DNA of 42,336 nucleotides from Myxococcaceae bacterium (lineage in GTDB: Bacteria; Myxococcota; Myxococcia; Myxococcales; Myxococcaceae), in assembly GCA_022842905.1 (NCBI GenBank), contig JALHOS010000014.1, forward strand, positions 1 through 42,336, given 5' to 3'. A model generated the notes under the pieces. It saw only the letters and a list, made by a program, of their open reading frames with translations, ran no database searches and was not told where the DNA came from. Position numbers and translations under genes: made by a program. Numbering within the stretch: position 1 is the stretch's first letter; each line of letters opens with the position of its first letter. Of this stretch, positions 4,176 through 20,935 are shown one piece after another.

Positions 4176-4188
4176 CGCCGCTACGGCG

Positions 4189-5587: not shown

Positions 5588-5614
5588 TTATCGGAAAGGC
5601 AGGAAGGTCCGTTG
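5588..5614 (-). promoter_or_regulatory. Sigma-28-like promoter candidate for 4868-5527
   Basis: Minus strand: CAAC (5614-5611), 15-base spacer, TCCGATAA (5595-5588). The -10 matches 7 of 8 bases of the FliA consensus GCCGATAA with the exact TAAA-N15 spacing; the -35 is weaker. It overlaps the end of the upstream chaperone gene and leaves a leader of about 55 bases. Confidence 0.6.
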
Positions 5615-5615
5615 C

Positions 5616-6086: not shown

Positions 6087-6562
6087 CAATACGCCTCTTC
6101 ACGAGTCTCGAGGCGACGGCGCCGCTCGATCTCGGCCATGTCGTTCGTCACGCTGCTGACGAGCGAGAGCATCTGCGCTTCGCGCTGCAAGAGCGACTTG
6201 AGCCGCTCGACGCGATCCGGCGGGGCGCGTACCTGAGCGAGCGCTTCGCCCACCAAGGTCTGCATGGCCTGGCTGGCGTTCTCGGACGCGGTCTGGAGGT
6301 AGCCGCGGTCCATGAACCCGTCGACGTCGGCCTCGTGGCCCCGGGGCATCGGGGGCATGGGCAGCCGCAGCTCTTCGGCGGAGTGCGCCGGGCCGATGAA
6401 GTCGATGAGGGCCGCCGACGCGAGCGCGGGGTTCTTCGGGTCGCCCTTCTTCTTGACCTTGCGATCGAGCTGCGCGCGGTCGACCAGTCGCTCGCGGACG
6501 GCGCGCGGGCCACCCCAGGGCCATTGGGGGGCGCGGGGCTGCGGTCCAATCGGGTTCGCCAT
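6086..6562 (-). CDS. Uncharacterised T3S-locus protein, coupled to a chaperone gene
   Basis: 158 aa, not recognised. Residues 1-45 are Pro/Arg/Lys-rich (NPIGPQPRAPQWPWGG), 46-80 are mixed (IDFIGPAHSAEELRLPMPPM), and 85-158 are predicted helical, ending in a highly charged helix (EIERRRRLETREEAY). No signal peptide or membrane helix is seen. The ATG at 6562 has GGAG about 12 bases upstream. Its stop codon overlaps the start of the SycD-like chaperone gene 5616-6086, an arrangement often used for a T3S substrate and its chaperone; an effector, regulator or tip-like role would fit, but nothing in the sequence decides. Confidence 0.75.
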   Translation of the reverse strand: MANPIGPQPRAPQWPWGGPRAVRERLVDRAQLDRKVKKKGDPKNPALASAALIDFIGPAHSAEELRLPMPPMPRGHEADVDGFMDRGYLQTASENASQAMQTLVGEALAQVRAPPDRVERLKSLLQREAQMLSLVSSVTNDMAEIERRRRLETREEAY

Positions 6563-6595: not shown

Positions 6596-6868
6596 TTACT
6601 TCTTCTGTTGTTCCTGCTGCAGCACGTAGACGAAGTTCAGCACCTCGGCCACGGCGTCATACAGCTCTTCGGGGATCTCCTGGCCGACGTCGACCCGGTA
6701 CAGGGACTGGGCCAGCGTGGTGTTCTTCATGAACGGCACCCCAGCCTCCTTGGCGATCTCGCGGATCTTCTCGGCCTTCAGCCGCATGCCCTTGGCGACC
6801 ACCCGCGGGGCCTGGTCCTTGTCCTTGTCGTACTTGATCGCAATCGCGATGTCGGGGTCTTCGGCCAC
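6596..6868 (-). CDS. Stand-alone SctU/FlhB C-terminal domain
   Basis: 90 aa, almost entirely homologous to the part of SctU after its NPxH cleavage site. Compare IAIAIKYDKDKDQAPRVVAK here with VAVALKYDPNKDQAPRVLAR in the adjacent SctU, and the shared end EELYDAVAEVLNFVY. The cleavage motif is degraded to D-P-D with the His missing, so no self-cleavage is expected. Similar free FlhB C-domains ('FlhX/FhlX') in flagellar systems can replace the cleaved FlhB C-domain. The start is GTG at 6868 with no clear Shine-Dalgarno. It lies 36 bases downstream of sctU and looks like a partial tandem duplication. It may tune the substrate-specificity switch. Confidence 0.88.
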   Translation of the reverse strand: MAEDPDIAIAIKYDKDKDQAPRVVAKGMRLKAEKIREIAKEAGVPFMKNTTLAQSLYRVDVGQEIPEELYDAVAEVLNFVYVLQQEQQKK

Positions 6869-6904: not shown

Positions 6905-7972
6905 TTAAGCGGCCGTGGGGGCCGTCTTCCGCGCGTCGAGTTGGTAGACGAAGTTCAGCACCTCGGCGACGGCGTCGTAGAGCTCTTCGGGGACCTCCTG
7001 GCCCGGCTCGACCCGCAACAGCGCGTGGGCCAGCGGCACGTTGCGCAGCAAGGGCACGTCTTCTTCCTTCGCCAGCGCCTTGATCTGCTCGGCCTTCGCG
7101 TCGAGCCCCCGCGCGAGCACCCGCGGGGCCTGGTCCTTGTTCGGGTCGTACTTGAGCGCCACCGCCACATGGTCGGGGTTGGTCACCACCACGTCCGCTT
7201 CGCGCACGCTCTCCATCTGCGCGCCTTCCATGATCTCCTGGTGCATCTGCTTGCGGTGCGCCTTGTGGTGCGGGTCGCCTTCGCTTTCCTTGTATTCCTT
7301 CTTCACGTCGTCCTTCGACATCATCTGGTCCTTCATGTACGACTTGTGCTGCCACCAGACGTCGAAGATCGCGAAGCCGATGAAGAGGGCGACGACCTTC
7401 ACGACCACGCGGTAGACCAGCTCGCCCATGACCGTCATCGTCATGTCGGCGTCGCCGCGGATCGTGGCCACGACCATGCCCATGGCGTCGCGCACCACGC
7501 CGTAGACGACGTAGCCAGTCACGCTGAGCTTGAACATGGACTTGAGCAGCTCGACCGCCTGCTTCTTGCCGAACAGGTTCTTGATGCCGTTGATGGGGTT
7601 GAGCTTGTCCAGCTTCGGCATGAGCGCCTTCGTCGCCAGCAGCGCGCCGACCTGCAGGAAGTCCATGAGCCCGCCGGCGATCGCCGACGCCGTCACCACC
7701 GGCACGCACAGCACCAGCAGGCTCGACAGCGCCAGGTACATGATCTGCTTGGTGGCCAGCTCGAGATCTTCGGGGTGAGAGATGTTGGTGATGCCGAAGA
7801 GGAAGAGCTGCTTGATCCGCACCTCGGTGTCCGGCCAGGTCGACTTGATGACGCCCATGGCGGCCGCGAACGCGACGACGCTCGACAGATCCTTGCTCTT
7901 CCAGACGTTCCCTTCTTTTCGGGCGTCGTCGAGCTTCTTCTGCGTCGGTTCTTCGGTCTTGTCGTCGGACAT
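6905..7972 (-). CDS. sctU: Type III secretion export/switch protein SctU (FlhB/YscU family)
   Basis: 355 aa, full length. The N-terminus EEPTQKKLDDARKEGNVWKS is the FlhB-family signature. Four hydrophobic segments lie between residues ~28 and ~205, followed by a charged linker. The self-cleavage motif is N265-P266-D267-H268 (NPxH, cut between Asn and Pro in the family), and the C-domain runs to residue ~345. SctU sits on the export gate and switches substrate class together with SctP. ATG at 7972; 16 bases after sctT. Confidence 0.97.
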   Translation of the reverse strand: MSDDKTEEPTQKKLDDARKEGNVWKSKDLSSVVAFAAAMGVIKSTWPDTEVRIKQLFLFGITNISHPEDLELATKQIMYLALSSLLVLCVPVVTASAIAGGLMDFLQVGALLATKALMPKLDKLNPINGIKNLFGKKQAVELLKSMFKLSVTGYVVYGVVRDAMGMVVATIRGDADMTMTVMGELVYRVVVKVVALFIGFAIFDVWWQHKSYMKDQMMSKDDVKKEYKESEGDPHHKAHRKQMHQEIMEGAQMESVREADVVVTNPDHVAVALKYDPNKDQAPRVLARGLDAKAEQIKALAKEEDVPLLRNVPLAHALLRVEPGQEVPEELYDAVAEVLNFVYQLDARKTAPTAA

Positions 7973-7988
7973 GGCTCGGCCCGCGCAC

Positions 7989-8819
7989 TCAGGACAGCAA
8001 CAGCAGGGCCTTCTTCATCCACACGAACATCACGCCGAACTCGTCGACCGTTCGGTTGATGATGAGGTGGATCGCCGAGAACATGATCACCACCGTCACC
8101 ATGGGCTTGATCTGCATGGCGACGAAGAACACCTGCACCTGCGGCGCGACGCGGTTGATCATGCCCAGCGCCAGGTCGGTGAGGAACGTGGCCAGCAGCA
8201 CCGGCGAGGCCAGCGCCACCGCGACGCGGAACATGTCGCCCGACACGCGGAGGATCAGATCCGTGAACGCCCAGAACCCGCCGCTGACGCGGGGGAAACG
8301 ATCGAGCGGCACCGCCGCGAGGCTGTCGCCGAACGCCTGAATGACGATGTGGTGGCCGCCCAGCGTCAGGAAGATCACCGTCGTCAGCTGCAGGTTCAGG
8401 TTCGAGAACAGCGTCGTTTGCTGCTGGATCTGCGGGACCATGAGCTGGGCTTGGTTGGTGCCCGACATGGTGTCGATGAAGCCACCCGCGCTCTGCGCCG
8501 ACTCGAAGACGAGGCCCACCACCATGGACAGCGCCAGGCCCATGAACAGCTCTTTGAGCATGAGCGCGACGAAGACCACCGCGGAGATCGGAATGAGCTG
8601 AATCTGCGAGACGATCGCCGGGAAGAGCACGAGCCCCAGCATGAGCCCCAGGCCCAGCTTCACCTCGCTGGGCACCGACTCACCGCCGAGGAACGGGGTG
8701 AGGATCACCACCGGCAACACCCGCGCGAGCAGCAGCGCCATGCCCATGGTGACGTGAGTGAAGTCGGTCTGGATGCCGAGCTGGTGCCGGACTTCGGCGA
8801 GCATGCTCTGGAGGTCCAT
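7989..8819 (-). CDS. sctT: Type III secretion export apparatus protein SctT (FliR family)
   Basis: 276 aa. Typical FliR/SctT: repeated hydrophobic helices (MALLLARVLPVVILTPFLGG at ~26-45, LMLGLVLFPAIVSQIQLIPI, LFMGLALSMVVGLVFESAQS), conserved GGFID in the middle, and a C-terminal part with PVLLATFLTDLALGMINRVA. SctT forms part of the helical SctRST pore of the export gate. ATG at 8819 without a clear Shine-Dalgarno; 22 bases after sctS. Confidence 0.95.
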   Translation of the reverse strand: MDLQSMLAEVRHQLGIQTDFTHVTMGMALLLARVLPVVILTPFLGGESVPSEVKLGLGLMLGLVLFPAIVSQIQLIPISAVVFVALMLKELFMGLALSMVVGLVFESAQSAGGFIDTMSGTNQAQLMVPQIQQQTTLFSNLNLQLTTVIFLTLGGHHIVIQAFGDSLAAVPLDRFPRVSGGFWAFTDLILRVSGDMFRVAVALASPVLLATFLTDLALGMINRVAPQVQVFFVAMQIKPMVTVVIMFSAIHLIINRTVDEFGVMFVWMKKALLLLS

Positions 8820-8841
8820 GAGGAGGCCGTGGGCGAGAGCG

Positions 8842-9108
8842 TCAGTGCGCGATGATCGCCGGGAAGCGATCGAAGATATGGAAGGTGAAGCGGAGCAGCT
8901 GCGTGCCGATCCACGGACCGGCCAGCCCCAGCACGCCGAAGACGATCACGAGCTTCGGCGCGAAGGACAGCGTCTGCTCCTGGATCTGCGTGGCGGCCTG
9001 GAAGACCGACACCGCGAAGCCCACCACCAGGCTCAGGACGATCGGCGGCCCCGACGCGACGAGCACCAGCAAGAGCGCTTCCTGGGTGATGTAGGTCAGT
9101 TGGTACAT
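8842..9108 (-). CDS. sctS: Type III secretion export apparatus protein SctS (FliQ family)
   Basis: 88 aa, the normal size. Two membrane helices (about residues 11-37 and 50-75) with the FliQ signature between them (QAATQIQEQTLSFAPK). It wraps around the SctRT pore in the inner membrane. ATG at 9108 with GAGGGG upstream; 13 bases after sctR. Confidence 0.96.
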   Translation of the reverse strand: MYQLTYITQEALLLVLVASGPPIVLSLVVGFAVSVFQAATQIQEQTLSFAPKLVIVFGVLGLAGPWIGTQLLRFTFHIFDRFPAIIAH

Positions 9109-9121
9109 GCAGCGGCCCCTC

Positions 9122-9934
9122 TTAGAGGTACCCGATCACGAGGCCCTTGGCGATCAGGTACCAGCCGTCCACGAGCACGAAGAGCAGCAGCTTGAACGGC
9201 ATGGAGATCGTCGTCGGAGACAACATCTGCATGCCGAGCGCGAGCAAGATGTTGGCGACCACCATGTCGATGACGAGGAAGGGCACGAACAACAAGAAGC
9301 CGATCTGAAAGGCCTCTTTGAGCTCGGACACGACGAAGGCCGGCGTGAGCACCAAGAAGTCGTTCTCGGCGATCTCCTTGCGCTCTTCCCCTTTGCGCAG
9401 CTTGAGCGCCAAGTTGAAGAAGAGCGCCTTGTCCTTGGTCGTCACCTTCTTCGCCAGGAAGCCCCGCAACGGCTCCTTCGCCCGCTTCGCCGCGGTGAGC
9501 AGCTGGTCGACGGACTTGGCGGACATGAGCCCTTCGGCGTTGCGCAGATCGCCGGACTTGTCGGCGGCGTAGAACATCTCCTGGCCGACGGGCGCCATGA
9601 TGTACACGGTGAGGATGATCGCGAGCCCCGTGATCACCTGCGTCGGCGGGATCTGCTGGGTGCCGAGCGCCGACCGGACGATCGACAGGACCACCGAGAT
9701 CTTCACGAAGCTCGTCACCATCAACAACACGAACGGCGCCAGGCCCAGCGCGGTCAGCGCCAGCAGCAACACCAGCGGCTGGTTCGCGAAGGTGCCCGAG
9801 CCGCCGCCACCCAACACGCCTGGATCGACGTTCTCGGCCCCCATCGCCGGGCGCCGGCGCTGCGCTTCGGCCAAGACTGGCAGGAGCACCGCGCTCAGAA
9901 AGACGACCCACCTGAAGCTCTTCGTCGACGGCAC
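9122..9934 (-). CDS. sctR: Type III secretion export apparatus protein SctR (FliP family) with signal peptide
   Basis: 270 aa. Residues 1-24 look like a cleavable signal peptide (FLSAVLLPVLAEA), a feature of flagellar FliP and not of most injectisome SctR proteins. It is followed by a Gly-rich stretch and then the FliP core: LVLLLALTALGLAPFVLLMV, MVTSFVKISVVLSIVRSALG, QIPPTQVI, and the C-terminal part FLLFVPFLVIDMVVANILLA and ALGMQMLSPTTISMPFKLLL. GTG start at 9934 with GGAG about 9 bases upstream. FliP needs FliO for stable assembly, and a FliO-like gene lies directly upstream. Confidence 0.96.
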   Translation of the reverse strand: MPSTKSFRWVVFLSAVLLPVLAEAQRRRPAMGAENVDPGVLGGGGSGTFANQPLVLLLALTALGLAPFVLLMVTSFVKISVVLSIVRSALGTQQIPPTQVITGLAIILTVYIMAPVGQEMFYAADKSGDLRNAEGLMSAKSVDQLLTAAKRAKEPLRGFLAKKVTTKDKALFFNLALKLRKGEERKEIAENDFLVLTPAFVVSELKEAFQIGFLLFVPFLVIDMVVANILLALGMQMLSPTTISMPFKLLLFVLVDGWYLIAKGLVIGYL

Positions 9935-9947
9935 GTTCGACCGCTCC

Positions 9948-10514
9948 TTAGCTCGCCGCAGGCGGCGGGCCCTTCTTCCCCAACAGCCGCGCGACGAACG
10001 GGCTGACCTCGGGCCCCCCGGCGGGCGGCGCGCGCAGCCGTTCGATCTCGGCCGCGTCCAGCTTGCTCAACAGCGACAGCCCGGCATCTCCCCCGCCGAT
10101 GAGCAGCACCTCATTCCCAGCGCGCACGACGAACAGCGCGCGCTTCTGGTCGAGCGACACACGCTCGAGCACGGTGATGAGCTTCGTGCCACCGGCCACC
10201 GACGCGATGCCGAGCAGCCGCCGCAGGCCCACGTTCAGCGTCAGGTAGATGATCGACACCACCAGCCCCAGCAGCACCGCCGTCCGCAGCAGCGTCCAGC
10301 CCAAGCTCACGTCTTCCCGCGCGTAGTCCGGCACGTCGGCCTTCGGCAGCCCGAGCTCGGGCTTGTCGGCGCGGAGGTCGGCGGCCACCGGCTCGCTGAC
10401 TTCGGGCACCGCGGAGGGGGCCGGAGCCGGGCTTGGAGGCGCGGGCTCAGCCGGCTGGCTCCACGCCACGCCCCCGAGCAGTCCCACCACCATGGCCAGC
10501 GCAATGCCTCGCAT
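9948..10514 (-). CDS. fliO: FliO-like export gate assembly protein
   Basis: 188 aa from the ATG at 10514; longer upstream reading would run into sctQ. Signal peptide at 1-19 (ALAMVVGLLGGVAWSQ), Pro/Ala-rich region 20-45, one membrane helix at ~73-95, then the small FliO domain (~108-155: LITVLERVSLDQKRALFVVR, then VLLIGGGDAGLSLLSKLD). FliO helps build the FliP-FliR complex in flagella and is normally absent from injectisomes. It is 13 bases upstream of sctR and 37 bases downstream of sctQ. The assignment rests on domain pattern and position. Confidence 0.85.
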   Translation of the reverse strand: MRGIALAMVVGLLGGVAWSQPAEPAPPSPAPAPSAVPEVSEPVAADLRADKPELGLPKADVPDYAREDVSLGWTLLRTAVLLGLVVSIIYLTLNVGLRRLLGIASVAGGTKLITVLERVSLDQKRALFVVRAGNEVLLIGGGDAGLSLLSKLDAAEIERLRAPPAGGPEVSPFVARLLGKKGPPPAAS

Positions 10515-10551
10515 GAAGGCTGCGCACGCTACTCGACGGGGCGCGATCACG

Positions 10552-12096
10552 TCACCCGGCGAGCGAGACGATCCGCACGCCGAGGCTCCCGTCGATCTCC
10601 ACGACCTCACCGCGCGCGACGACCTTGCCGTTGACGGACAGCTCCACCGGCTCACCGGCCGTCTTGTTGAGGTCCAGCACGTGGCCCACCTTCATCGCCA
10701 CGACGTCCTCCGCGGTGACCGACACGCGCCCCAGCTCGACCATGATCTGCAGCGGCACGTCTCCCAACAGGTCCGAGCCTTCCATCTTGTTGTCGTCCAT
10801 GTCCTGGATCACTCCGGTGACGGGTTCCTCGTGCACGCTGTCCTGCGACGACAGGTCTTCGTCGCTGGCGGGGGCGGGCGAACCTTCTGACCCTCCTTCA
10901 GCCGGCGGCGCGCCTTCGCCCGTCTCCATGTCCGGCGGCCGGCCGTCCAGCGGCTGCTCCGCCGCCACCGGCTCCCCGACTCGGCACTTGAAGCGCCCGC
11001 CCTCGAAGAGCACCTCGGCCCTCACGTAGCCCATGCGGCCGTAGCCCACGCGGAGCCGCGCGGTGCCTCCAGCCTTCTTGTCCGGCCGCGCCGACAGCGA
11101 GTCGACGATGATGACGTCCTTGGGCCGCACCTGCGCCAGGTCGGCGGCCATGATGTCCACGGTGCCGATCTCCGCCCGCACCCAGCAGCGCACCAGGCGC
11201 AGCCGCATGGCGTGGGCGCTGGCTTCGGCCGAGCGACGCGCGCGGCGCACCTGCCCCATGGGCGGCGGGTTCGCCTGCGCCAGCACCGACTCGGGAATGA
11301 ACAGGCGCAGGTACCCGGTCTGCGAGCCGATCGACGCGCGCAGCTGGACGACGGCCAGGTTCTCGACTTCCCCCAAGAGCGTCATCGCCTCGTCGAAGCT
11401 CTTCGCGAGCCCCTCGACGCGCAGCTTGGGCATGTTCTGGTCCATCGTCGGCGCCAACGCCTTGAGCGTCTCGATGATGACGTACGTCATCACCCCTTCT
11501 TCGATGTCCGTCAGCGGCCGCAGCGCCACCGCCTCACCGGCGCCGCCCATGAGCATGTCGATGGCGGTGTGCGCGAGGTTGATCTCCACCTCGAGCAGGC
11601 CGCGCGTCTTGTTCGGCTGCGGGGCGAGCACGGCAAGGAACGTCGGCTCGGACACGTACTGCCGCACCTTCGACGGCGGCACGATGTGCACGTACTCCGC
11701 CTGGAGCGAGACCGGCTCTTCCATGAGCTCGGACAGCCGCCGCTTGACGGACTCGCTCACCTCGCCGGTGGAGCGCACGTTGGGCAGCATCCACTCGAGC
11801 CTGCGCAGCAAGGACACCTGCTGCTTGGACACCTTGTCCAGCTTGGGCCAGCGGTAGGGCTTCCACAGCGCGTCCCGCCCGGAAGGCGCCGGTGGCTCGG
11901 CGGGAGCCTGCGGCATGACGGCGCGGCCCTGGGTCTGCTGAGCGCGGCCGGCGGGCGCTCGGCCCACGGTCGTCTGCTTGGGCGGACCGGCCGGCTTCTC
12001 GGCCTTGGTGACGTTCTGGAGCGGGATCATCATCGTCCGCTCGGTCGGGTACCGAGGCTTCTCAGCAGGTGCAGTGCTGCCGGGCTTCTTCGTCAC
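10552..12096 (-). CDS. sctQ: C-ring protein SctQ, FliM/FliN composite
   Basis: 514 aa, much longer than usual SctQ (~300 aa). Residues 1-75 are disordered. Residues ~85-285 resemble the FliM middle domain (LDKVSKQQVSLLRRLEWMLP, then MLMGGAGEAV with the conserved GG turn). A SpoA-like domain lies at ~295-375, an acidic Pro-rich linker follows, and a second SpoA/FliN domain closes the protein at ~434-514 (LLGDVPLQIMVELGRVSVTA, VGHVLDLNK, VARGEVVEIDGSLGVRI). It should form the cytoplasmic sorting platform/C-ring. The GTG start (12096) overlaps the sctP stop by 4 bases (GTGA). Confidence 0.9.
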   Translation of the reverse strand: MTKKPGSTAPAEKPRYPTERTMMIPLQNVTKAEKPAGPPKQTTVGRAPAGRAQQTQGRAVMPQAPAEPPAPSGRDALWKPYRWPKLDKVSKQQVSLLRRLEWMLPNVRSTGEVSESVKRRLSELMEEPVSLQAEYVHIVPPSKVRQYVSEPTFLAVLAPQPNKTRGLLEVEINLAHTAIDMLMGGAGEAVALRPLTDIEEGVMTYVIIETLKALAPTMDQNMPKLRVEGLAKSFDEAMTLLGEVENLAVVQLRASIGSQTGYLRLFIPESVLAQANPPPMGQVRRARRSAEASAHAMRLRLVRCWVRAEIGTVDIMAADLAQVRPKDVIIVDSLSARPDKKAGGTARLRVGYGRMGYVRAEVLFEGGRFKCRVGEPVAAEQPLDGRPPDMETGEGAPPAEGGSEGSPAPASDEDLSSQDSVHEEPVTGVIQDMDDNKMEGSDLLGDVPLQIMVELGRVSVTAEDVVAMKVGHVLDLNKTAGEPVELSVNGKVVARGEVVEIDGSLGVRIVSLAG

Positions 12097-13109
12097 GCGC
12101 GAGCCTCAACCTTGAACTCTTCGAGTGACAGCCCCCGTGCGGACAACGCCGCCTGGAGCGCTTCACCCTGTTGTTCAATGAGCTTCAACACATCACGATC
12201 GGACCCGGAAAACACGGCTTTGATCTTGCCCTGGTGGCTCGACACCTTCACCGTCAGCCCGGACAGCACGTCGCTGCGCATGTCGATCTGAAACTCGGCG
12301 CGACCGAGCGCATTGGTGCCCACCCGGACCCGCTCGACGATCTTCTGCGCCAGCTCGTTGGCGATCTTCCTCAGGCGCTCCGAGCCGCTGACGTCCTTCT
12401 TCTGCGCAACCGGCACCGGCGCCATGAGCGCGGGGTTGAACCGGAAGCCAGGCGCACCCGCGCCGCCCTTCCCTTCGTCCTTGCCGCCGCCGCCGCCCTG
12501 CTGCCCGCCCTTGTCCGCGTCGGACTTCAGCTCCGAAGCGTCGCCCTTCCCTTCGGCCCCGGAGACGGCCTTGCCGGACTTGGCGGCCTCGCTCGCCTCC
12601 CGGCGCTCGTCGATCCGCTCGCGTCCGGCCTTCGCGTCGGCCTTGCGAGCCTCGGTGCTCGCGCCGGCGTGCTGGGCGTCGTTGCTGCGGCCAGCGGTGG
12701 CCTGGGAATCTCCCTGGTCCGCCAACAGCTTGAGCTTCTCGGCGTGCTGCCCTTCGGAGCGGGAGCCCTGGCGCAGCCGTTCGTCCAGGCCCTTCTGCCC
12801 TAGCCGGCCCTGAAACCCCTGTTGCTGGCGCTGGCTCTCGAGGCCGGCGTGCTCGGCGGCTTCCCCGGCCTGCGCCGAAGCGCTCTCCGCTTGCTCCAAC
12901 AAGGCGGCGATCGCCGAGCGCGCGTTCGATTCCTTGGCCGTCTGCTGCTGTTGCCCGGCGCGCTTCTCGTCCTTGGCCTGGCCCACGAGCTTGGAGAACA
13001 CGCCGTCCGCCTGGACGCGGTCCTTCTTCTTCGACTCGTCCAAGCGCCGCTGCTCTGCCGCCCGCGCCGCCTGCCGTGCCGCTTCACGATCATCTTCGAC
13101 CCGGCTCAT
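12093..13109 (-). CDS. sctP: SctP/FliK-like length-control protein with Flg_hook domain
   Basis: 338 aa. Residues 1-225 are low-complexity and charged or Gln/Gly-rich, as expected for a flexible molecular ruler. Residues ~260-338 match the FliK C-terminal (Flg_hook) domain: GRAEFQIDMRSDVLSGLTVK, then HQGKIKAVFSGSDRDVLKLI, then LSARGLSLEEFKV. In related systems this domain contacts SctU/FlhB to stop hook or needle growth. ATG at 13109, 7 bases after sctO; overlaps sctQ by 4 bases. A ruler-type protein would be unneeded in a system with no hook or needle. Confidence 0.85.
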   Translation of the reverse strand: MSRVEDDREAARQAARAAEQRRLDESKKKDRVQADGVFSKLVGQAKDEKRAGQQQQTAKESNARSAIAALLEQAESASAQAGEAAEHAGLESQRQQQGFQGRLGQKGLDERLRQGSRSEGQHAEKLKLLADQGDSQATAGRSNDAQHAGASTEARKADAKAGRERIDERREASEAAKSGKAVSGAEGKGDASELKSDADKGGQQGGGGGKDEGKGGAGAPGFRFNPALMAPVPVAQKKDVSGSERLRKIANELAQKIVERVRVGTNALGRAEFQIDMRSDVLSGLTVKVSSHQGKIKAVFSGSDRDVLKLIEQQGEALQAALSARGLSLEEFKVEARA

Positions 13110-13116
13110 GGCGCGC

Positions 13117-13635
13117 TCATTCCTTGCTCCCGCCGCCGTTCGCGGCCGCCGCCCGAGTGCGCTGCAGGTGGAGCGTGTTGCCGATCTCCTCCTGGTTCAG
13201 CTCCTCCTTCATCATGCGCTCCTTGCGCACTTCCTTCTTCCAAGTGTCCTTGTGCTTCTCGATCGCCTTCTTCTCCATGGCGGCGTTCGCCATCTCCTGC
13301 CGTCGCTGCTCCATGAGCTTCTCGGCCTGGAGCACGGCCTCTTTCTGCCGTTCGATGTCGAGGGCCTTCTGGGCTTCTTCGTCCTTGAGCCGGTTTTCGA
13401 AGCGGCCCATCTGCTGAAAGCCGTTGATGCCGCCGCCCTTGGCGCTGACCTCGACCAAGAACGCCTGCACCTTCGCCTTGCGCTCGGCCTTGGCCCGCTC
13501 GAGCGCGGCCTTCATCTCCTCGAGCTTCTTCTTCTCGGCGTCGTGGGCGCGGACCGCGGCCGAGAACGCCTCCTTGGCGGCGTCTTCCGCTTTGGTGCGA
13601 ATGTCGAGCAGCGCTTCGAGCCGGTACGGAGGCAT
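13117..13635 (-). CDS. sctO: Type III secretion stalk protein SctO (FliJ/YscO family)
   Basis: 172 aa, nearly all charged coiled coil (AEKKKLEEMKAALERAKAER, EKLMEQRRQEMANAAMEKKA), starting with YRLEALLDIRTKAEDAAKEA, the N-terminal pattern of FliJ/YscO. The family forms the central stalk in the ATPase ring and links it to SctV. ATG at 13635. Its place between sctN and sctP is the usual one. Confidence 0.92.
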   Translation of the reverse strand: MPPYRLEALLDIRTKAEDAAKEAFSAAVRAHDAEKKKLEEMKAALERAKAERKAKVQAFLVEVSAKGGGINGFQQMGRFENRLKDEEAQKALDIERQKEAVLQAEKLMEQRRQEMANAAMEKKAIEKHKDTWKKEVRKERMMKEELNQEEIGNTLHLQRTRAAAANGGGSKE

Positions 13636-13699
13636 ACGGTCGCCGCGAGTCTACCACCCTGCCCCACGGTCCGCGCAGCCCTTGCGCGCCCACACGGGC

Positions 13700-15022
13700 T
13701 CACGACGCGTCGGCGAAGAGGTCGATGAGCTGCTGGACGGTGGCGTCGAAGGGCGTGCTGTCGTGGGTGTCCTGCTTCAAGTAGTCGATGATCGACTCGT
13801 ACTTGTCGATCGCGTAGTCGGTGCGCGGGTCCGTGCCGTAGCTGTACGCGCCCAGCAAGATGAGATCGCGCTGCTTCTCGTACGTCGACAGCGTCTCGCG
13901 CAGCTTCCCGGCGGCCTTCTTGTGCTCGGGCGAGACGATCTGGCTCATCACACGAGACAGCGACGCGAGCACGTCCATCGCCGGCCACTGGTTTCGTTCG
14001 CCCAGCGCGCGGTTGAGAATGAAGTGGCCGTCCAAAATACCGCGGACCTCGTCGGCGATCGGCTCTTCCATGTCACCGCCGGCCACGAGGCACGTGTAGA
14101 TCGCCGTGCACTTGCCCTTCGCCGAGTTGCCCGTGCGCTCCAGCATGCGCGGGAGCATGGAGAACACCGACGGCGGGTAGCCTTGACGGGCCGGCGGCTC
14201 GCCGATCGCCAGGCCGATCTCACGCTGGGCGCGCGCCAAACGGGTCACCGTGTCGAGCATGAACAGCACGTTGCCGCCGCGCTCACGGAAGAACTCGGCG
14301 ATCGCCGTGGCCACGTAGCCCGCGCGCAGACGCACCAGCGACGGCTGGTCGGAGGTCGCGCACACCACCACCGAGCGCTTCATGCCTTCTTCGCCGAGCG
14401 CGTCTTCGATGAACTCCAAGACTTCGCGACCACGCTCGCCGATCAGCGCGATCACCGACATCTCCGCCGCGGTGTTCCGGGCGATCTGCCCCATGAGCGT
14501 GGACTTACCGACGCCGGAGCCGGCGAAGAGCCCAATGCGCTGGCCTTCGCCGACCGTCAAGAGCCCGTCGATGCAGCGCACGCCGAGCGGGAGCGGCCGG
14601 AGAATGCGCTGGCGGGTGAACGGATCCGGACAGTCGCGATCCACCGACCAGTCCTGCATGCCTTCGGTCGGCAGCGGCTTCCCGTCGATGGGCTCGCCCA
14701 GGCCGCTGAGCACGCGCCCCAGCAGCCCGTCGCCCACGGAGATCGTCAGCGGGCGGCCGGTGGGGATCACCTCGCTGTCGGGGCCGATGCCGGACAGCTC
14801 ACCCAACGGCATGAGCATGACCGTGTCGCCCTGGAAGCCGACGACCTCGGAGCGCACCTGCTGGTTGCCGCGGCGAATGAGGCAGACCTCGCCGACGCGC
14901 ACATTGGGCACGGCCGCTTTGATCACCAGCCCGGTCAGCTCGACGACGCGGCCGCGAATGCGCACCGTCTGCGCCGTCTTGACGAGCTCCTTGTACCGCC
15001 TCAGATCGACCGCGGCGCTCAC
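13700..15022 (-). CDS. sctN: Type III secretion ATPase SctN (FliI/YscN family)
   Basis: 440 aa, typical length. Walker A GSGVGKST at residues 168-175; the Walker B region is VLFMLDTVTR; the family block PPARQGYPPSVFSMLPRMLE is intact. The hexamer unfolds or releases chaperone-bound substrates at the export gate. The GTG start (15022) overlaps the sctL stop by 4 bases, so the two are translationally coupled. A 64-base gap separates it from sctO. Confidence 0.98.
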   Translation of the reverse strand: MSAAVDLRRYKELVKTAQTVRIRGRVVELTGLVIKAAVPNVRVGEVCLIRRGNQQVRSEVVGFQGDTVMLMPLGELSGIGPDSEVIPTGRPLTISVGDGLLGRVLSGLGEPIDGKPLPTEGMQDWSVDRDCPDPFTRQRILRPLPLGVRCIDGLLTVGEGQRIGLFAGSGVGKSTLMGQIARNTAAEMSVIALIGERGREVLEFIEDALGEEGMKRSVVVCATSDQPSLVRLRAGYVATAIAEFFRERGGNVLFMLDTVTRLARAQREIGLAIGEPPARQGYPPSVFSMLPRMLERTGNSAKGKCTAIYTCLVAGGDMEEPIADEVRGILDGHFILNRALGERNQWPAMDVLASLSRVMSQIVSPEHKKAAGKLRETLSTYEKQRDLILLGAYSYGTDPRTDYAIDKYESIIDYLKQDTHDSTPFDATVQQLIDLFADAS

Positions 15023-15729
15023 TTCGATTCCTTCTTCACGTTGTCCGGCTGCAGGAGCTGCTTGAGCATTTCGAACTGCGTCTTGAGCTGGCCGTCGATG
15101 ATGCCGTAGTCCGTTTGAATGATGCAGCCGCCCCGCTCGACCTCGGGGTCGTCACGCACGGCGATGTCGATCGCCCGGCCGATGAGCTCCATGAGCCGAG
15201 GCCGCTTGTCGCGCAGCAGCTTCCCGTCTTCCGGGCTGACGCGGATCGTCATGGCCTTGGCCGCGCGGGCCGACTCCATGGCGGTGGCGACGATCTCGAC
15301 GATCGCGTCGGGGTCCCGCTCCAGATCGCGCCCGATGATCTTCGCGGCGATCTTCAACGACAGGTCGATGATCTCGCTCTCGGTGCGCGCCAAGATGTCG
15401 CCGGCCTGGATCTTCGCCTTGGCGATCTCCTCGGCGGCCTTGGCTTGGGCTTCGGCTCTCGCGTCGTCGCGAGCGCGGGCGTAGACCTCGTCCCGCTTGG
15501 CCTCGGCCTCGGCGATGATGCGCTGCGCCTCGGCTTGAGCCTTCTCGACGATCTCCTGGGCTTTGGTTCGAGCGTCGTACTCCTCGGCGTTGACGACGCG
15601 CGGCCTCGCCGCCTTCTCAGGCGCTGCGGCGGCTGGCTTCTCCGGCGCCGGGGCTGGCTCCGGGGCGGGCAAGCTGTCGCCTTTGATGACCTTGCCGATG
15701 ACCCGAGCCGGCCGACGCTCCTCATCCAT
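15019..15729 (-). CDS. sctL: Type III secretion stator protein SctL (FliH family)
   Basis: 236 aa. A Pro/Ala-rich N-terminus (to ~45), a long Ala/Glu coiled coil (~50-115: AQEIVEKAQAEAQRIIAEAE), and a C-terminal FliH domain (~118-230: IIDLSLKIAAKIIGRDLERD, then GGCIIQTDYGIIDGQLKTQF). SctL binds the N-terminus of SctN and tethers it to the C-ring. ATG at 15729; 14 bases after the FliG-like gene. Confidence 0.95.
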   Translation of the reverse strand: MDEERRPARVIGKVIKGDSLPAPEPAPAPEKPAAAAPEKAARPRVVNAEEYDARTKAQEIVEKAQAEAQRIIAEAEAKRDEVYARARDDARAEAQAKAAEEIAKAKIQAGDILARTESEIIDLSLKIAAKIIGRDLERDPDAIVEIVATAMESARAAKAMTIRVSPEDGKLLRDKRPRLMELIGRAIDIAVRDDPEVERGGCIIQTDYGIIDGQLKTQFEMLKQLLQPDNVKKESK

Positions 15730-15743
15730 ACGCGCGGCCGAGC

Positions 15744-17087
15744 TTACTCGGAACCATCACCCGGTCCACGACGACCCCGCAGCACGGGCGATCGCGCGTT
15801 CGAGCCGGTGCCGGTGCGCACGCTCTGATTCTTGCGCCGAGGAATCGGCTGCGTCGCGGGCGAGGCCACGGCCTGTCGGTCCATGGGCCGCCCGTCGCGG
15901 AGAATGCGCCGACGCTCGCCGGTCTCCGTGCCTTGGACGGTGCCCGCGCCGGCAGGCTTCGGCCGCTGCGCACCACCACCCTGGCGCTGCGGCTCGCGCA
16001 CCGGAGGCGCCACCACCTGGCCGCCCGGCAAGCCGGGGACCTTGGGCAGCGCCTGGCGAGAGGCCTGCGACCGCAGCGCGGGCAGCACGCCCGACAGCAT
16101 GTTCTCGGAAGCCCCCAGCCGCGGCGACGGCTTGAGCGGCGGCGGCAGGCGAATGGGCCGGTCGAGCACCCCCTTCTGCGCCAGCCGCTCGAGCTGCTCG
16201 ACGATGTCCATGCGCCCGCCGTCGGCCTTCACCGGCCGGTGCTGCTCGTCGCGGAGCCACCGGGCCAAGAGCTTGCCCAAGTCCGAGCCCTGGTGCCGGT
16301 CCACCAGCCGCGTGGCGAACTCCGGCGACTGGGCGATCGCCGCGCGCATGACACGCTGCGCGCCGGCGCTGCGCATGCCCGTGGACGGGTTCTCGATCGC
16401 GCCGTGCATCTCCAGGCACAGCCGCGCGTCGTCCACGTTGAGCCGCTTGGCCTTCCCAGCTTCAGCGGCGCGGGTGGCGAGGTTGCGCTGGTCCGGCGGG
16501 AGCTTGCTCAGGAACTGATCCCGGTCGATCTCGATGAGCCCGGCCACGGCCGTGGCCAGCACACGCGCCCCCATGCGATCGATCACCGCGAGCAACTCCC
16601 GCTGCTGGAGCGTGATGACGTCGCTGAAGCGGAACACCCCGACCGGCGGCGCCTTCGCGCGGATCTGCTCTTCGAGCCGCGCCCGAATGATCGACTGAAT
16701 GTCGGGGCGAATGTCGGCGTCGCTGTCCGCCCGGTGGCCCGGCAGCGCCCGCCGCGTCGCGTCTGCCAGGTCGGAAGGAAGCGACCGGAGCACCACCTCG
16801 ATCAGCCCGGGCCGCTCGCCGCTCATCACCGCGGCCAGCTGCTCCGGCTCGGCGCTGCCCAGCTGCTTGCGCCGCTGCATGACCAGCCGCTTGATCTCCT
16901 GCGTGAGGAACGAGATCCGCTTGTCCCGCGGGATCTGCAGCAACATCGGCGCGCGGTACTTGAGCAGCTCCTCTTCGTCCGGCGGCAGGTGGCCGAAGCT
17001 CTCGACCGCGTCTTGGCCTCCCAGCGCCAAGCTCGTGAGCAGGAGCATCTGCTGCCGCTTGGTGAGTGACGCGAAGACCTGCTCCAT
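15744..17087 (-). CDS. FliG-like protein at the SctK position
   Basis: 447 aa, encoded between sctJ and sctL, where injectisomes have sctK and flagella have fliG. Residues ~80-120 match the FliG middle domain (LAAVMSGERPGLIEVVLRSL, cf. the EhPq...LP pattern). Residues ~150-210 match the second FliG armadillo block (VFRFSDVITLQQRELLAVID, then ATAVAGLIEIDRDQFLSKLP). Residues ~330-447 are a Pro/Gly/Arg-rich tail absent from FliG. It would connect the SctJ ring to the FliM/FliN-like SctQ. ATG at 17087; no clear Shine-Dalgarno. The FliG relation is weak but present in two blocks; a divergent SctK is the alternative. Confidence 0.7.
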   Translation of the reverse strand: MEQVFASLTKRQQMLLLTSLALGGQDAVESFGHLPPDEEELLKYRAPMLLQIPRDKRISFLTQEIKRLVMQRRKQLGSAEPEQLAAVMSGERPGLIEVVLRSLPSDLADATRRALPGHRADSDADIRPDIQSIIRARLEEQIRAKAPPVGVFRFSDVITLQQRELLAVIDRMGARVLATAVAGLIEIDRDQFLSKLPPDQRNLATRAAEAGKAKRLNVDDARLCLEMHGAIENPSTGMRSAGAQRVMRAAIAQSPEFATRLVDRHQGSDLGKLLARWLRDEQHRPVKADGGRMDIVEQLERLAQKGVLDRPIRLPPPLKPSPRLGASENMLSGVLPALRSQASRQALPKVPGLPGGQVVAPPVREPQRQGGGAQRPKPAGAGTVQGTETGERRRILRDGRPMDRQAVASPATQPIPRRKNQSVRTGTGSNARSPVLRGRRGPGDGSE

Positions 17088-17138
17088 GGGTGCGCTCGAG
17101 ACCTGTTCGCGAAGCTTGGCTCAAGCCTCGCGCCCGCG

Positions 17139-17933
17139 TCACCCCTCCGGTGGGGGGGACGGCCGGGGCTTCTTCGAGCCGCCCGGCCGCCGGAGCGCCA
17201 GGAACGCCGTCACACCGGCCATGGCCAAGAAGAGCACCGCGAAGATCGCCAGCATCGCCTTGAGCGTGCCCGCGCTCGCCTTGTCCACGCGAATGCCGAG
17301 GATGCGGACCATGCGCTCTTCTTCGGGATCCTCGATGACGAGCAGCTGCTCCGTCATGAGCACCTTGACGTTCTCGGGCTTGAGCTCGGGCACCGCACGC
17401 GAGACGAACTCGCGAATGTCGTCGGCGCCCAGCGGAGGCTTCCCGTCGACCTTCAAGTACGTGATCAGCACCGACGCCGACGGCATGGGCTTCTTGTCCG
17501 GCTGGGTCAGATCGTTCACCTCGGGGATCATCACGATCGTGCGCGCGCCGAGAATGCCGGGGACGCGGTTGAGCGCGTTGCTCACCTCACCGCCGAGCGC
17601 CTCGAGGAACATGGCGCGCTCTTCGGTCTGGGTGGGGATCATCCCCTTCGTTTGCTTGAAGATCCCCAGGCCTTCGGCGTGCGGCCGGGGCAGCGAGTGC
17701 TTGCGCAACAGCGCGGCGGCCCGCTCGACGTCACCCTTGGGCACGGCGATGACGTAGCGCGCGTCCTTGCCTTCACCTTCGCGCAGCTTCGTCGTGTCGA
17801 TCTGGGCCTTGGTGAGGAGGACGTAGATGTCGTTCGCGTCCTCTTCGTTCAGGTCGTGGTGCAGGTTGACCGTACAGGCCGACAGCGCCAAGACCACGAA
17901 CGCGGCGGCGTATTGAGGCAGTCGAAGGCGCAT
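17139..17933 (-). CDS. sctJ: Type III secretion inner-membrane ring lipoprotein SctJ (YscJ/PrgK family)
   Basis: 264 aa. Lipoprotein signal with lipobox LSAC, modified Cys at residue 20, followed by the YscJ start VNLHHDLNEEDANDIYVLLT. The two ring-building domains are present (~20-80 and ~110-195, with ERAMFLEALGGEVSNALNRV and GARTIVMIPEVND), and a C-terminal membrane helix lies at ~228-250. ATG at 17933, 35 bases past the hairpin following sctI; no separate promoter was found. Confidence 0.97.
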   Translation of the reverse strand: MRLRLPQYAAAFVVLALSACTVNLHHDLNEEDANDIYVLLTKAQIDTTKLREGEGKDARYVIAVPKGDVERAAALLRKHSLPRPHAEGLGIFKQTKGMIPTQTEERAMFLEALGGEVSNALNRVPGILGARTIVMIPEVNDLTQPDKKPMPSASVLITYLKVDGKPPLGADDIREFVSRAVPELKPENVKVLMTEQLLVIEDPEEERMVRILGIRVDKASAGTLKAMLAIFAVLFLAMAGVTAFLALRRPGGSKKPRPSPPPEG

Positions 17934-18023: not shown

Positions 18024-18557
18024 CTAGACCTGCGTCTTGAGCGTGTCCTTGAGGCCCGACGTGGCCTTCTCGACGACCTTGCCTGTCAGCTCGAGCTCCT
18101 GCGTGTACTTGTACATGCCGGCCTGCAGCTGGAGCAGCTCGGCGTTGGAGAAGTTCTTCCCGTTGAAGGCGCCGTTGACGAGCTTGTCGATCGCCACCTG
18201 GCCCTTCTCCATGCTCGCCATCATGCCCATGATCATCGAGTTGGACTTGGTGACTTCGCCCTTCTGCGCGACGGGATCGAGCGCCTTGGTCGTGGCGTTC
18301 TTGTCGAGCTTGGCCAGGGTCGACTTCTCAGTCTTGCCCGCCTGCTCCACCGCGTGGGTCGTCGCGGTCTTCTGAACCTGCGGCGCCTGCTGCACCTTGT
18401 TCGCGGCCTGAACTTGGCCGGCGACGTCAGTCCCCTTCGCCTTGAGGGCCTGGTCGAACTTCGACGCCCCCTCCTTAACCTGAGGTTGTGCGCCCTGGGA
18501 TGGCAGCTTCTGCTGCGCGATCTGAGCTGCTGAGAGTCCTGCCAGCGGTCCCGCCAT
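18024..18557 (-). CDS. sctI: Type III secretion inner rod protein SctI (YscI/PrgJ family)
   Basis: 177 aa from the ATG at 18557, chosen because GGAGG lies 7 bases upstream. The N-terminal ~110 residues are Gln/Lys/Ala-rich and longer than in YscI. The C-terminal helix is typical of the YscI/HrpB family: LLQLQAGMYKYTQELELTGK, then VVEKATSGLKDTLKTQV up to the last residue. SctI polymerises as the rod/adapter under the needle. The first 83 bases overlap the end of the sigma-factor gene in another frame. It has its own sigma-28-like promoter candidate and a downstream hairpin. It directly precedes sctJ, as in Yersinia-type loci. Confidence 0.9.
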   Translation of the reverse strand: MAGPLAGLSAAQIAQQKLPSQGAQPQVKEGASKFDQALKAKGTDVAGQVQAANKVQQAPQVQKTATTHAVEQAGKTEKSTLAKLDKNATTKALDPVAQKGEVTKSNSMIMGMMASMEKGQVAIDKLVNGAFNGKNFSNAELLQLQAGMYKYTQELELTGKVVEKATSGLKDTLKTQV

Positions 18558-19245
18558 GGTCCGACCTCCTGGGTGCACCGGAATTATCGTCGTCCTCCTC
18601 GAGGAGTTTCTTCAGACTTTCCACGGCCCTAGCGTGCAGCCGGCTCGCCCACGACTTGGACTGTCCGATCTCGGCCCCCGCTTCCTCCAAGGTCTTGCTC
18701 TGAAAGTAGTAGCCCTCGAGAAGTTTTCGCTCTTTTTCTGGGAGCTTCTCTATCGCGGAGCGCACCCGCTTCTTGAGCTGCTCGAGCTGCAGCCGCTCGT
18801 CGGCAGGCAGCGCTTCGTCCGACAGCTGGAGGCCTTCGGTGCCCTCCAGGCTCGTCGCGAACACCATGGCCAGGCCGCTGACAGCTGTGGACACTTCGCG
18901 CACATCGTCTTCGAGCTTGGCCCCGCCTCCACCCGAGCGGTCCGCCAGGTTGCCCAGGTACGAGTTGGCACGATCAGCCGCCGAGCCCGCTCCCTTGAGC
19001 GCCCCCATCTTCCGCAGGCCGTCGTAGATGGCGCCCTTGATCCGGTAGTGGGCGAAGGTGAGGAAGTTGGCGCCGACCTTCGAGTCGAAGCGCTCGGCGG
19101 CCTCGAGCAGGCCGATCTGGCCCCACGCGACCAGCTCGTCCATGTCGAACTGGCCGTTGAACTGCTTGCGGACCTGGGCCGCGAGCGAACGTACGTACGC
19201 TCCGTACTTCTCCAGGATCTGCGGTTTGGACTCACCGAGAGGCAC
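18475..19245 (-). CDS. FliA/WhiG-type (sigma-28 family) sigma factor
   Basis: 256 aa. Region 2 spans ~10-80 (DMDELVAWGQIGLLEAAERF, then FLTFAHYRIKGAIYDGLRKM, the classic FliA motif). Region 4 spans ~157-215 (AIEKLPEKERKLLEGYYFQS, then LEEAGAEIGQSKSWASRLHA with the helix-turn-helix). The last ~36 residues (after LLEEDDD) are polar and correspond to DNA overlapping sctI. GTG start at 19245, 9 bases after 19255-19662. It is the likely activator of the three sigma-28-like promoters in this locus, including one inside its own 3' end. Confidence 0.93.
   Translation of the reverse strand: MPLGESKPQILEKYGAYVRSLAAQVRKQFNGQFDMDELVAWGQIGLLEAAERFDSKVGANFLTFAHYRIKGAIYDGLRKMGALKGAGSAADRANSYLGNLADRSGGGGAKLEDDVREVSTAVSGLAMVFATSLEGTEGLQLSDEALPADERLQLEQLKKRVRSAIEKLPEKERKLLEGYYFQSKTLEEAGAEIGQSKSWASRLHARAVESLKKLLEEDDDNSGAPRRSDHGGTAGRTLSSSDRAAEAAIPGRTTSG
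18584..18610 (-). promoter_or_regulatory. Sigma-28-like promoter candidate for sctI
   Basis: Minus strand: GAAA (18610-18607), 15-base spacer, GACGATAA (18591-18584): 3 of 4 and 7 of 8 matches to the FliA consensus TAAA-N15-GCCGATAA. It lies inside the 3' end of the sigma-factor gene, 26 bases before the sctI ATG. Confidence 0.65.
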
Positions 19246-19254
19246 GCGGGCTTT

Positions 19255-19662
19255 TCACTCCTGCTCGGCTTCGGCGCGGGTCCACATGCGCTCGAGCGTC
19301 TGCTTCAGGCGTGGGTCGTCCTGCAGTTGATCGACCACACGTTCGGTGAGCTTCTTGGACTGCAGGCGGACCTTCTCGCGCAAGATATCAGCGACGAGCT
19401 TCTTGGTGGCTTCGTCGCGGCTCTTGAGCTGCCCCGCCTTGAGCTGGCGCGCCAAGTTGAGCACCTGCGCGGCGACGGGATCCGCAGCGGCCGCGGCGCC
19501 CACGTTCGACGAGCCGACGAGCCCTGACGGTCCGACGAGGGATCCTGCCCGATCGACCTTGCCGGCGAAGCCAGCGCCGCCGGCCTTCGCTGGGCCAGAC
19601 GCCGCACCCGCACGTCCCGCGCCCGCCGATCTGCCTCCGCCACGAACGCCCTTCACCGACAT
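19255..19662 (-). CDS. Small helical protein next to sigma factor; possible FlgM-like anti-sigma
   Basis: 135 aa. Residues 1-60 are Gly/Ala/Ser-rich and disordered. Residues ~62-130 are helical: AAQVLNLARQLKAGQLKSRD, then EATKKLVADILREK. This stretch recalls the FlgM C-terminal pattern (helix, K..I..G.Y, then ..vA..ll), and FlgM is also a mostly disordered inhibitor of FliA. The gene sits 9 bases upstream of the FliA-type sigma gene. The resemblance is faint; another T3S-locus function is equally possible. ATG at 19662 with AAGGGG upstream. Confidence 0.6.
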   Translation of the reverse strand: MSVKGVRGGGRSAGAGRAGAASGPAKAGGAGFAGKVDRAGSLVGPSGLVGSSNVGAAAAADPVAAQVLNLARQLKAGQLKSRDEATKKLVADILREKVRLQSKKLTERVVDQLQDDPRLKQTLERMWTRAEAEQE

Positions 19663-19696: not shown

Positions 19697-20143
19697 TCAC
19701 TTCTGCTTGCCCGGCGGCGGGAGCGCGCCCGCTTCCTTCGCGTTGACGAGGTCCTGCGCGAACTGCGCGCCGACGCTGCCCGGCTCCAGGTCGAGCGCCG
19801 CCTTGAGCTCCTTCATGGCCTCGTTCACCTTGCCCATGAAGAGCAGCACTTCGCCACAGTGCGCCCGCGGCAGCGACGCCTTGGGCGAAAGCCGCTGCGC
19901 CGCGCGAAACGCCTGCAGCGCCTTGTCGAGGTGCCCCTGGTTGAACTCGAGCGTGCCCATGGCGAGCTGCGGCACTTCGCTCTTGGGCATGAGGGACACC
20001 GTGCCACCGAACAGCTCGCGGGCGGCCTCGAAGTTGCCCAGGTCCATCCACAGGTACCCGGCCTCGAGCATGACCATGGCCTGCTGCTTGGTCAGCGGCA
20101 CCAAGCTGTGTGCGATCTCCGACTCGGACTTCGGTTCGGCCAT
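19697..20143 (-). CDS. TPR protein, SycD/YscG-like T3S chaperone candidate
   Basis: 148 aa from the ATG at 20143 (AGGAA upstream); a longer reading frame to 20221 runs into the hairpin and is unlikely. TPR motifs: AMVMLEAGYLWMDLGNFEAA, QLAMGTLEFNQGHLDKALQA, AHCGEVLLFMGKVNEAMKEL. The size and order resemble SycD/LcrH and also YscG/PscG, the TPR chaperone of needle subunits. It directly follows the needle-like gene 20239-20766, so a needle-chaperone role is an attractive inference. Confidence 0.78.
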   Translation of the reverse strand: MAEPKSESEIAHSLVPLTKQQAMVMLEAGYLWMDLGNFEAARELFGGTVSLMPKSEVPQLAMGTLEFNQGHLDKALQAFRAAQRLSPKASLPRAHCGEVLLFMGKVNEAMKELKAALDLEPGSVGAQFAQDLVNAKEAGALPPPGKQK

Positions 20144-20188
20144 GAGGTTCCTCGTGGGCGGCGTGAAGGTGGGAGCCTCATAACACGA

Positions 20189-20211
20189 AGGGCGGCCACT
20201 TGGGCCGCCCT
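20189..20211 (-). terminator. GC-rich hairpin after 20239-20766
   Basis: AGGGCGGCC (20189-20197) and GGCCGCCCT (20203-20211) form a 9-bp stem identical to that after sctI, with a 5-base loop. The following minus-strand bases (TCGTGTTATG) lack a good T-run, so it may attenuate or protect mRNA rather than fully terminate. Confidence 0.6.
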
Positions 20212-20238
20212 CGGTGAGCACTTCAGCTGGTCACTCGC

Positions 20239-20766
20239 TCAGCGGATGTTCGAGATGGAGTTCTTCACCGTGTCGTGCTTGGTCTTGAGCACGTTGGACA
20301 CGGAGCTGAACACCTGGTTCTCGCGCTGCATGGAGATCTGAACCTGGAGCAGCTTGGCGTTGTCCGCCGTCGCCTGCGCCACGTCGGTGTTCATCTGGCC
20401 GATCGTGTTCGACGCGCCGCCGCCGGACAGGTTCGGCGCACCGGAGCCCGCGCCCACCACCGAGCCGCTGCCCACCGTGGTGTTGATGCCGCCGCCGGAG
20501 CCGCCCACGTTGACCGTGCCCTGCGCCGCGTACGACGCCGACGCCGCGCCGCCCGCCATGTTGGTCACCGACGAAACCGCCGCCGAGATGATCGCGCCAC
20601 CCGGCAGAGCGCCGCCGACGAGCGACGCGCCGTTGGCGATGACGTTGCCGGCCTGCTGCAGGCCCGCGTGCATGCGCTCACCGAACGTCGAGCCTTGGGT
20701 CTGACGGCCAACCGTGACGTTCGTCGAGAGGCGGGCCGGGGTCTGATCGATGCGATTGATAGCCAT
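20239..20766 (-). CDS. Needle-like exported subunit candidate A (SctF-like C-terminus)
   Basis: 175 aa from the ATG at 20766, supported by GGAGAAG just upstream; a longer frame to 20859 overlaps the promoter. Residues 1-110 are Ala/Gly/Ser-rich with a hydrophobic stretch (SLVGGALPGGAIISAAVSSV), then a Gly/Ser linker, and a C-terminal helix from LLQVQISM (139-146) to SISNIR. The last 34 residues align without gaps to the PrgI needle C-terminus (recalled) with about 9 identities, including Q, S-N, K, D and the final N-x-R. The same module ends SctI and 4868-5527. It is followed by a hairpin and a TPR chaperone gene. Alternatives: a translocator-like or other early substrate. Confidence 0.6.
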   Translation of the reverse strand: MAINRIDQTPARLSTNVTVGRQTQGSTFGERMHAGLQQAGNVIANGASLVGGALPGGAIISAAVSSVTNMAGGAASASYAAQGTVNVGGSGGGINTTVGSGSVVGAGSGAPNLSGGGASNTIGQMNTDVAQATADNAKLLQVQISMQRENQVFSSVSNVLKTKHDTVKNSISNIR

Positions 20767-20863
20767 GTGACTTCTCCAGAAAAAGGTGAACTGCGACGAC
20801 GGAAGCTTCAGAACTCGCGAGAGCACCGCTTCGACCCGTGCCGAGAGCGCCCTCTGCATTCAT

Positions 20864-20890
20864 GTATCGCCGTTGCCTGACTGCTTGTTG
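20864..20890 (-). promoter_or_regulatory. Sigma-28-like promoter candidate for 20239-20766
   Basis: Minus strand: CAAC (20890-20887), 15-base spacer, GGCGATAC (20871-20864), 6 of 8 matches to GCCGATAA. The -35 (GCAAC) and spacing are identical to the site upstream of 4868-5527. It implies a leader of about 90 bases. Confidence 0.5.
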
Positions 20891-20935
20891 CGTGGTGTAC
20901 GAAACCGAGACGGTGACCGGCCGGCCGATCGACGA

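Follow-up and report, generated by a model that had tools for sequence, protein, structure and literature searches.

Protein A, encoded on the minus strand at 20239-20766 of a Myxococcaceae contig, is probably (at a rough 0.7) an enlarged subunit of SctF type in the myxobacterial type III secretion system T3SS*, as judged from its sequence, and would work there beside a second needle-type protein, B, and the inner rod protein SctI. A supposedly needleless system contains two needle-superfamily genes and not one, and both are apparently co-regulated with the rod.

Genomic setting

The window, i.e. the whole stretch of 42,336 nucleotides analysed here, is the entire contig C14 of a genome of 7.85 Mb in 667 contigs. 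Scans with Pfam and NCBIfam reveal in it a non-flagellar T3SS cluster, chiefly on the minus strand. An FHA/SctD-like protein (237-1397) lies on the plus strand; on the minus strand are found the export gate protein SctV (1441-3552), two further TPR proteins (3579-4776, that is 4189-4776 and 3579-4175), B (219 aa; 4868-5527), an LcrH/SycD-like TPR chaperone upstream of B recognized in the NCBIfam scan (5616-6089), a block of SctJ, SctK/FliG-like, SctL, SctN, SctP/FliK-like, SctQ, FliO-like, SctR, SctS, SctT and SctU genes (6905-17933), SctI (18024-18578), identified by a weak PF17001 match and synteny, a FliA/WhiG-type sigma factor found by family scans (18475-19245), the small conserved helical protein X (19255-19662), which follows A by synteny and is also present in Polyangia, and a TPR protein (19697-20143). 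A stand-alone equivalent of the SctU/FlhB C-terminal domain (6596-6868, minus strand) adjoins the full SctU, and Myxococcus has one too. No secretin, tip or translocon protein was identified; the cluster itself lacks a secretin, and to our knowledge none is known for the myxobacterial T3SS*.

The open reading frame of A runs from an ATG at 20766, which matches the starts in relatives (e.g. loci L010, L013 and L018), to a stop at 20239 and encodes 175 residues, laid out according to low-confidence AlphaFold2 secondary structure as N-terminal helices, a Gly/Ser-rich linker and a C-terminal assembly helix at residues ~121-174. The strong ribosome-binding site and the hairpin that an earlier note on this DNA had assigned to the gene are both present, the former as GGAG (20774-20777, minus strand) 7 nt upstream of the ATG, the latter as a GC-rich hairpin in the gap that separates A from the TPR gene (20183-20215, minus strand) in a stretch folding with -28.6 kcal/mol (z -3.1), which the scan did not call a terminator because it lacks a T-run. 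The adjacent TPR gene is likewise present and conserved; its product is LcrH/CdsG/SctY-like by NCBIfam, below the cut-offs, and is probably the chaperone of A. Adjoining this gene and placed four genes before SctI, A has a gene context like that of SctF.

The C-terminal helix of protein A

Is A a relative of the needle subunit? Its C-terminus shares 9 of 34 gap-free identities with the needle protein PrgI, as the earlier note had stated (P ~3e-4 against shuffles), identities that are weak by themselves, and it is the profile tests that carry the case. In a profile-profile comparison with a profile of four genuine SctF proteins, fetched independently with PF09392, A scored a probability of 86.5% with an E-value of 4.6e-6, which refers to the single pair and not to a database, and the alignment is gap-free with the C-termini ending together. 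None of 300 column shuffles, half of which kept heptad positions, was as good (best 19.0 as compared to 31.9 observed). A and B match each other with 98.1%, and B matches SctF with 95.8%. The profile of A retrieves from the window's own genome only A, its second copy A2 and four B proteins, and a profile built from B proteins alone recovers A with an E-value of 6.9e-7. The profile check against SctF and SctI that the earlier note had suggested thus did find SctF similarity for the C-terminal helix of A.

The family libraries point in the same direction. Among C-termini of A proteins the needle is the Pfam family matched by most (8/23; E 0.013 for A of the window), and SctF and HrpA are the two NCBIfam families matched by most, while full-length A has no match in either library. 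The C-terminal fragment of A reaches 16.1 bits against PF09392, for which the curated cut-off is 29.4, and with 175 residues and a long linker A departs from the helix-turn-helix of about 80 residues of SctF; because of this length and score, A is filed here as needle-type by homology and not as a curated SctF member. In a single-sequence search of the PDB, 7y6c_F ranked first of 177,635 sequences, a rank and not a significance as the E-value was 0.58; this 43-residue chain is labelled needle co-chaperone, and its letters, read by eye, we take to resemble the needle subunit SsaG. The same search with one B-type C-terminus yielded 7y6c_F and PrgI (E 0.005-0.96) and with another no match. In comparisons with HrpA, 62-residue A-type C-termini gave best E-values of 0.014 (NF053530) and 0.11 (PF09589) and one full-length A relative 0.021; A itself had no significant HrpA match. 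In the structural comparison that the earlier note had also proposed, the AlphaFold2 model of A was poor (pLDDT 53) and Foldseek found no usable match for it in the PDB.

A shared sigma-28-like promoter

Upstream of A, sigma-70 and sigma-54 promoters were sought and none was found. A scan of upstream regions revealed instead GCAAC-N15-CGATAA, a FliA-like promoter with the family form GCAAC-N14-17-CGATAA, which in the window precedes A as GCAAC-N17-CGATA (20865-20891, minus strand). The promoter of its own that the earlier note had ascribed to A therefore exists as a conserved sigma-28-like site and not as a sigma-70 site. In non-redundant regions, G[CA]AAC-N14-17-CGATA occurs upstream of A in 25 of 35 cases and upstream of SctI in 9 of 28, as compared to a single case in 231 for all other cluster genes combined; among the listed B-type reading frames, with uncurated starts and duplicates kept, it occurs in 15 of 39. 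Since the motif was defined on A, SctI and B constitute independent tests of it. Within the window the strict motif is found twice, before A and before B (5589-5615, minus strand), with 0.05 expected, and a GAAAC form precedes SctI (18585-18610, minus strand). Genome-wide, five strict sites stand against four for the reversed control, so that the motif is not enriched; it is its placement and not its genome-wide number that counts. The three further sites in the genome (C69:22343, C154:11721 and C322:4760; loci L153-L155), about the number expected by chance, are possible additional members of the regulon.

The FliA/WhiG-like sigma gene lies between X and SctI in the same operon as A, and we infer that its product is the reader of the promoters of A, SctI and B, which are apparently co-regulated.

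Conservation and gene order

Relatives of A were found in 43 of 60 related genomes and then at 80 named loci, and A is present in each of the 27 Myxococcus genomes; statements on Myxococcus hold at the level of the genus, with Myxococcus sp. RHSTA-1-4 and M. macrosporus DSM 14697 as anchors. The best conserved part is the C-terminal 43 residues. Among the 60 relatives A occurs in 42 of the 46 genomes with SctV and in one of the 14 without, and this one genome is 87% complete. Of the four genomes that have SctV and lack A, three have no SctV but a distant one (38-41% identity), which may be the flagellar FlhA, and the fourth is 82% complete. Myxococcus, Corallococcus, Archangium, Hyalangium and Citreicoccus all have the genes in the order A-TPR-X-sigma-SctI-SctJ-SctK-SctL-SctN-SctP-SctQ, with one copy of A per cluster and a clear SctI in every complete cluster.

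The second copy, A2, sits directly before SctI and SctJ. In M. macrosporus it belongs to a second, smaller T3SS of the order A2-SctI-SctJ-SctQ-SctR-S-T-U-V (L211 11184-19899, minus strand), and as the 40 kb read there contain no B-type gene, A2 is the only needle-type candidate of this system. Neither the ATPase SctN nor SctL was seen in the stretch read of this compact system.

Two other arrangements were observed. In Polyangia (L078, L083-L086, L090, L091, L098, L102, L103 and L105) a small X-like gene comes after an A-like gene and the flank read contains no T3SS genes; the genomes tested have SctV elsewhere. At L206 (1368-2906, minus strand) and L207 (453-2774, plus strand) two related lipoprotein-like genes contain three segments of A in order, with 72-87% DNA identity to the respective genome's own A gene, which looks like recombination or gene conversion.

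Protein B and a possible division of labor

The C-terminal domain of B matches PF09392 with an E-value of 1.2e-5, under the curated cut-off, which B-type proteins of two relatives pass outright. In the corresponding place Myxococcus sp. RHSTA-1-4 encodes a protein of 71 residues (PF09392, E 6.8e-5), of which residues 3-70 align to positions 4-71 of the 71 of the profile, i.e. over its full length. AlphaFold2 models it at low confidence (pLDDT 66) with helices 3-26 and 30-70 in a needle-like shape, and Foldseek found no usable match for this model in the PDB. Judged by sequence, B is nearer to canonical SctF than A is and is more likely than A to be the classical needle or major subunit. Several clusters of Myxococcaceae contain two to five B-type genes close together. 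Elsewhere in the window's genome further B-type paralogues are found on C459 (twice), C8 and C4 (L007 382-4333; L209; L210), with near-identical or related C-termini and different N-termini, and two of them adjoin a protein of 683 residues without any Pfam match.

These properties of B give weight to the most serious alternative, which falls somewhat short of even odds, namely that B is the needle and A a minor subunit of the SctF superfamily, such as a connector, cap, tip or filament extension, kin by descent with another role. It would account for the closer match of the B profile to SctF, for the needle-sized and full-length needle-like counterpart in Myxococcus and for B genes being often multiple where A is single per cluster. 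However, A2 is the sole needle-type gene in the 40 kb read of the second Myxococcus system, and A and B have their promoter in common.

Unlikely alternatives: translocator, rod or chance resemblance

A second alternative, which we regard as unlikely, would make A a translocator or an exported effector whose needle-like C-terminal helix serves no more than export or chaperone binding. Residues ~35-66 of A are indeed hydrophobic and rich in small residues, and TPR chaperones serve translocators too. Moreover, the module is not confined to T3SS: the A-type C-terminal 43 residues, very strongly conserved, also end proteins that, by visual reading, have apparent Sec signals and belong to Bacteroidota, Chlorobi, Acidobacteriota, Rokubacteria and Alphaproteobacteria (L082, L087, L088, L093-L096, L100, L107, L109-L111 and L113). 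As 10 of these 13 genomes are without SctV/FlhA, the module can live outside a T3SS. These occurrences do not fit the needle reading of A; a general role in helix stacking could reconcile them with those in T3SS. Against a translocator or effector, on the other hand, speak the strong constraint on the C-terminal helix, the near-universal presence of A with the machine, the position of A2 in the place of SctF and the promoter that A shares with the rod.

That A is instead a second inner rod protein of the SctI type is quite improbable. The earlier note had pointed to the motif [LM]L[QE]xQxxM, after which exactly 29 residues remain to the C-terminus, and this is present in both A (LLQVQISM) and SctI (LLQLQAGM); across all loci 12 of 6832 reading frames have it at this distance, and all 12 are relatives of A or SctI. 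A rod would also be favored by the known resemblance between SctF and SctI. Yet A and SctI match with a probability of only 15.6% over 28 columns, as compared to 86.5% with SctF, and A is accordingly taken as needle-type and not rod-type; a clear SctI is, moreover, already there in every complete cluster. A as a second SctI was dropped on this comparison, SctI being the separate gene at 18024-18578. The suggestion of an enlarged, unannotated needle or rod thus holds for an enlarged, unannotated member of the needle superfamily in a T3SS operon and fails for the rod. Finally, short helices can yield spurious matches and the single-sequence scores were weak, but a chance or compositional likeness of helical C-termini is hardly credible given the shuffles, heptad-preserving ones included, and the concurrence of two libraries, reciprocal profiles, synteny and the shared promoter.

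Proposed mode of action

How could an enlarged SctF-type subunit act? Homology, conservation, synteny, the shared promoter and co-occurrence with SctV were computed, and from these we infer how A might be chaperoned, exported, polymerized and located and whether it is a major or minor subunit. The C-terminal 43-54 residues of A would be the assembly helix of the needle superfamily, and the N-terminal half and Gly/Ser-rich linker would be lineage-specific additions. In the HrpA pilins of plant pathogens, too, a variable N-terminal part precedes the assembly helix. It could be imagined that the FliA-like sigma factor transcribes A, SctI and B as genes of the export stage, that the TPR proteins beside A and B hold the C-terminal helices soluble, and that the subunits then pass the export gate (SctRSTUV). 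A and B, with SctI providing the rod, would subsequently stack their C-terminal helices to give a channel or a short filament that starts at the inner membrane and either ends in the periplasm or spans it. There the filament could meet the Tad/Kil apparatus, a meeting that is proposed because no secretin is known for T3SS*; the Tad/Kil secretin as exit is speculation. This secretin has been reported to be recruited to the same contact site as T3SS*.

A more far-reaching and tentative version, which we consider possible and rather less probable than not, is a composite filament built of several paralogous SctF-type subunits, namely A and at least one B, whose variable N-terminal domains are enlarged. 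A FliA-type sigma factor devoted to this system would turn on the filament at a late checkpoint like that of flagella, and the filament might dock on the Tad/Kil secretin. In this version the same C-terminal module would also have passed to proteins of other phyla that are apparently exported by Sec, where it would serve self-assembly without any T3SS.

Relation to known systems

With SctF (PF09392, TIGR02105: PrgI, MxiH, YscF, SsaG) A shares the gap-free C-terminal helix and its end residue, the T3SS operon and the TPR neighbor, and A2-SctI-SctJ resembles SctF-SctI-SctJ. However, A has 175 residues as compared to ~80, an extra N-terminal half and Gly/Ser-rich linker and scores below the curated cut-offs, and its system is without secretin. 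The HrpA pilins (PF09589, NF053530) are similar in their variable Gly/Ser-rich N-terminal part and in weak matches to some A family members, but not significantly to A itself. Like the flagellar class 3 genes under FliA, the putative exported-subunit genes of the cluster have CGATAA-type promoters along with a FliA-like sigma factor; here, if the sigma factor acts, these would be needle-type and rod genes of an injectisome, and the -35 element is GCAAC/GAAAC and not TAAA.

The T3SS* of Myxococcus xanthus (mxan_2434-2464) has SctD, J, I, Q, RSTUV, N and L in common with the present cluster, as well as several LcrH-like chaperones, but it is described without a needle homologue, whereas the corresponding cluster in Myxococcus species contains two needle-superfamily genes. 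That related myxobacterial systems are described as needleless, as the earlier note had stated, is confirmed by the literature, where it is also argued that SctF, if present, would have been detected. The findings on B-type proteins contradict this argument and the needleless description. As A and B are both relatives of the needle, A is present in all Myxococcus genomes examined and the same promoter precedes both, the label "needleless" for T3SS* is probably wrong. If A and B are needle-type, the exit of T3SS* substrates becomes testable by deletion of a few small genes. Furthermore, the shared sigma-28-like promoter would mean that needle-type genes of an injectisome are controlled in the manner of flagellar genes, which fits the idea that such systems have retained ancestral traits.
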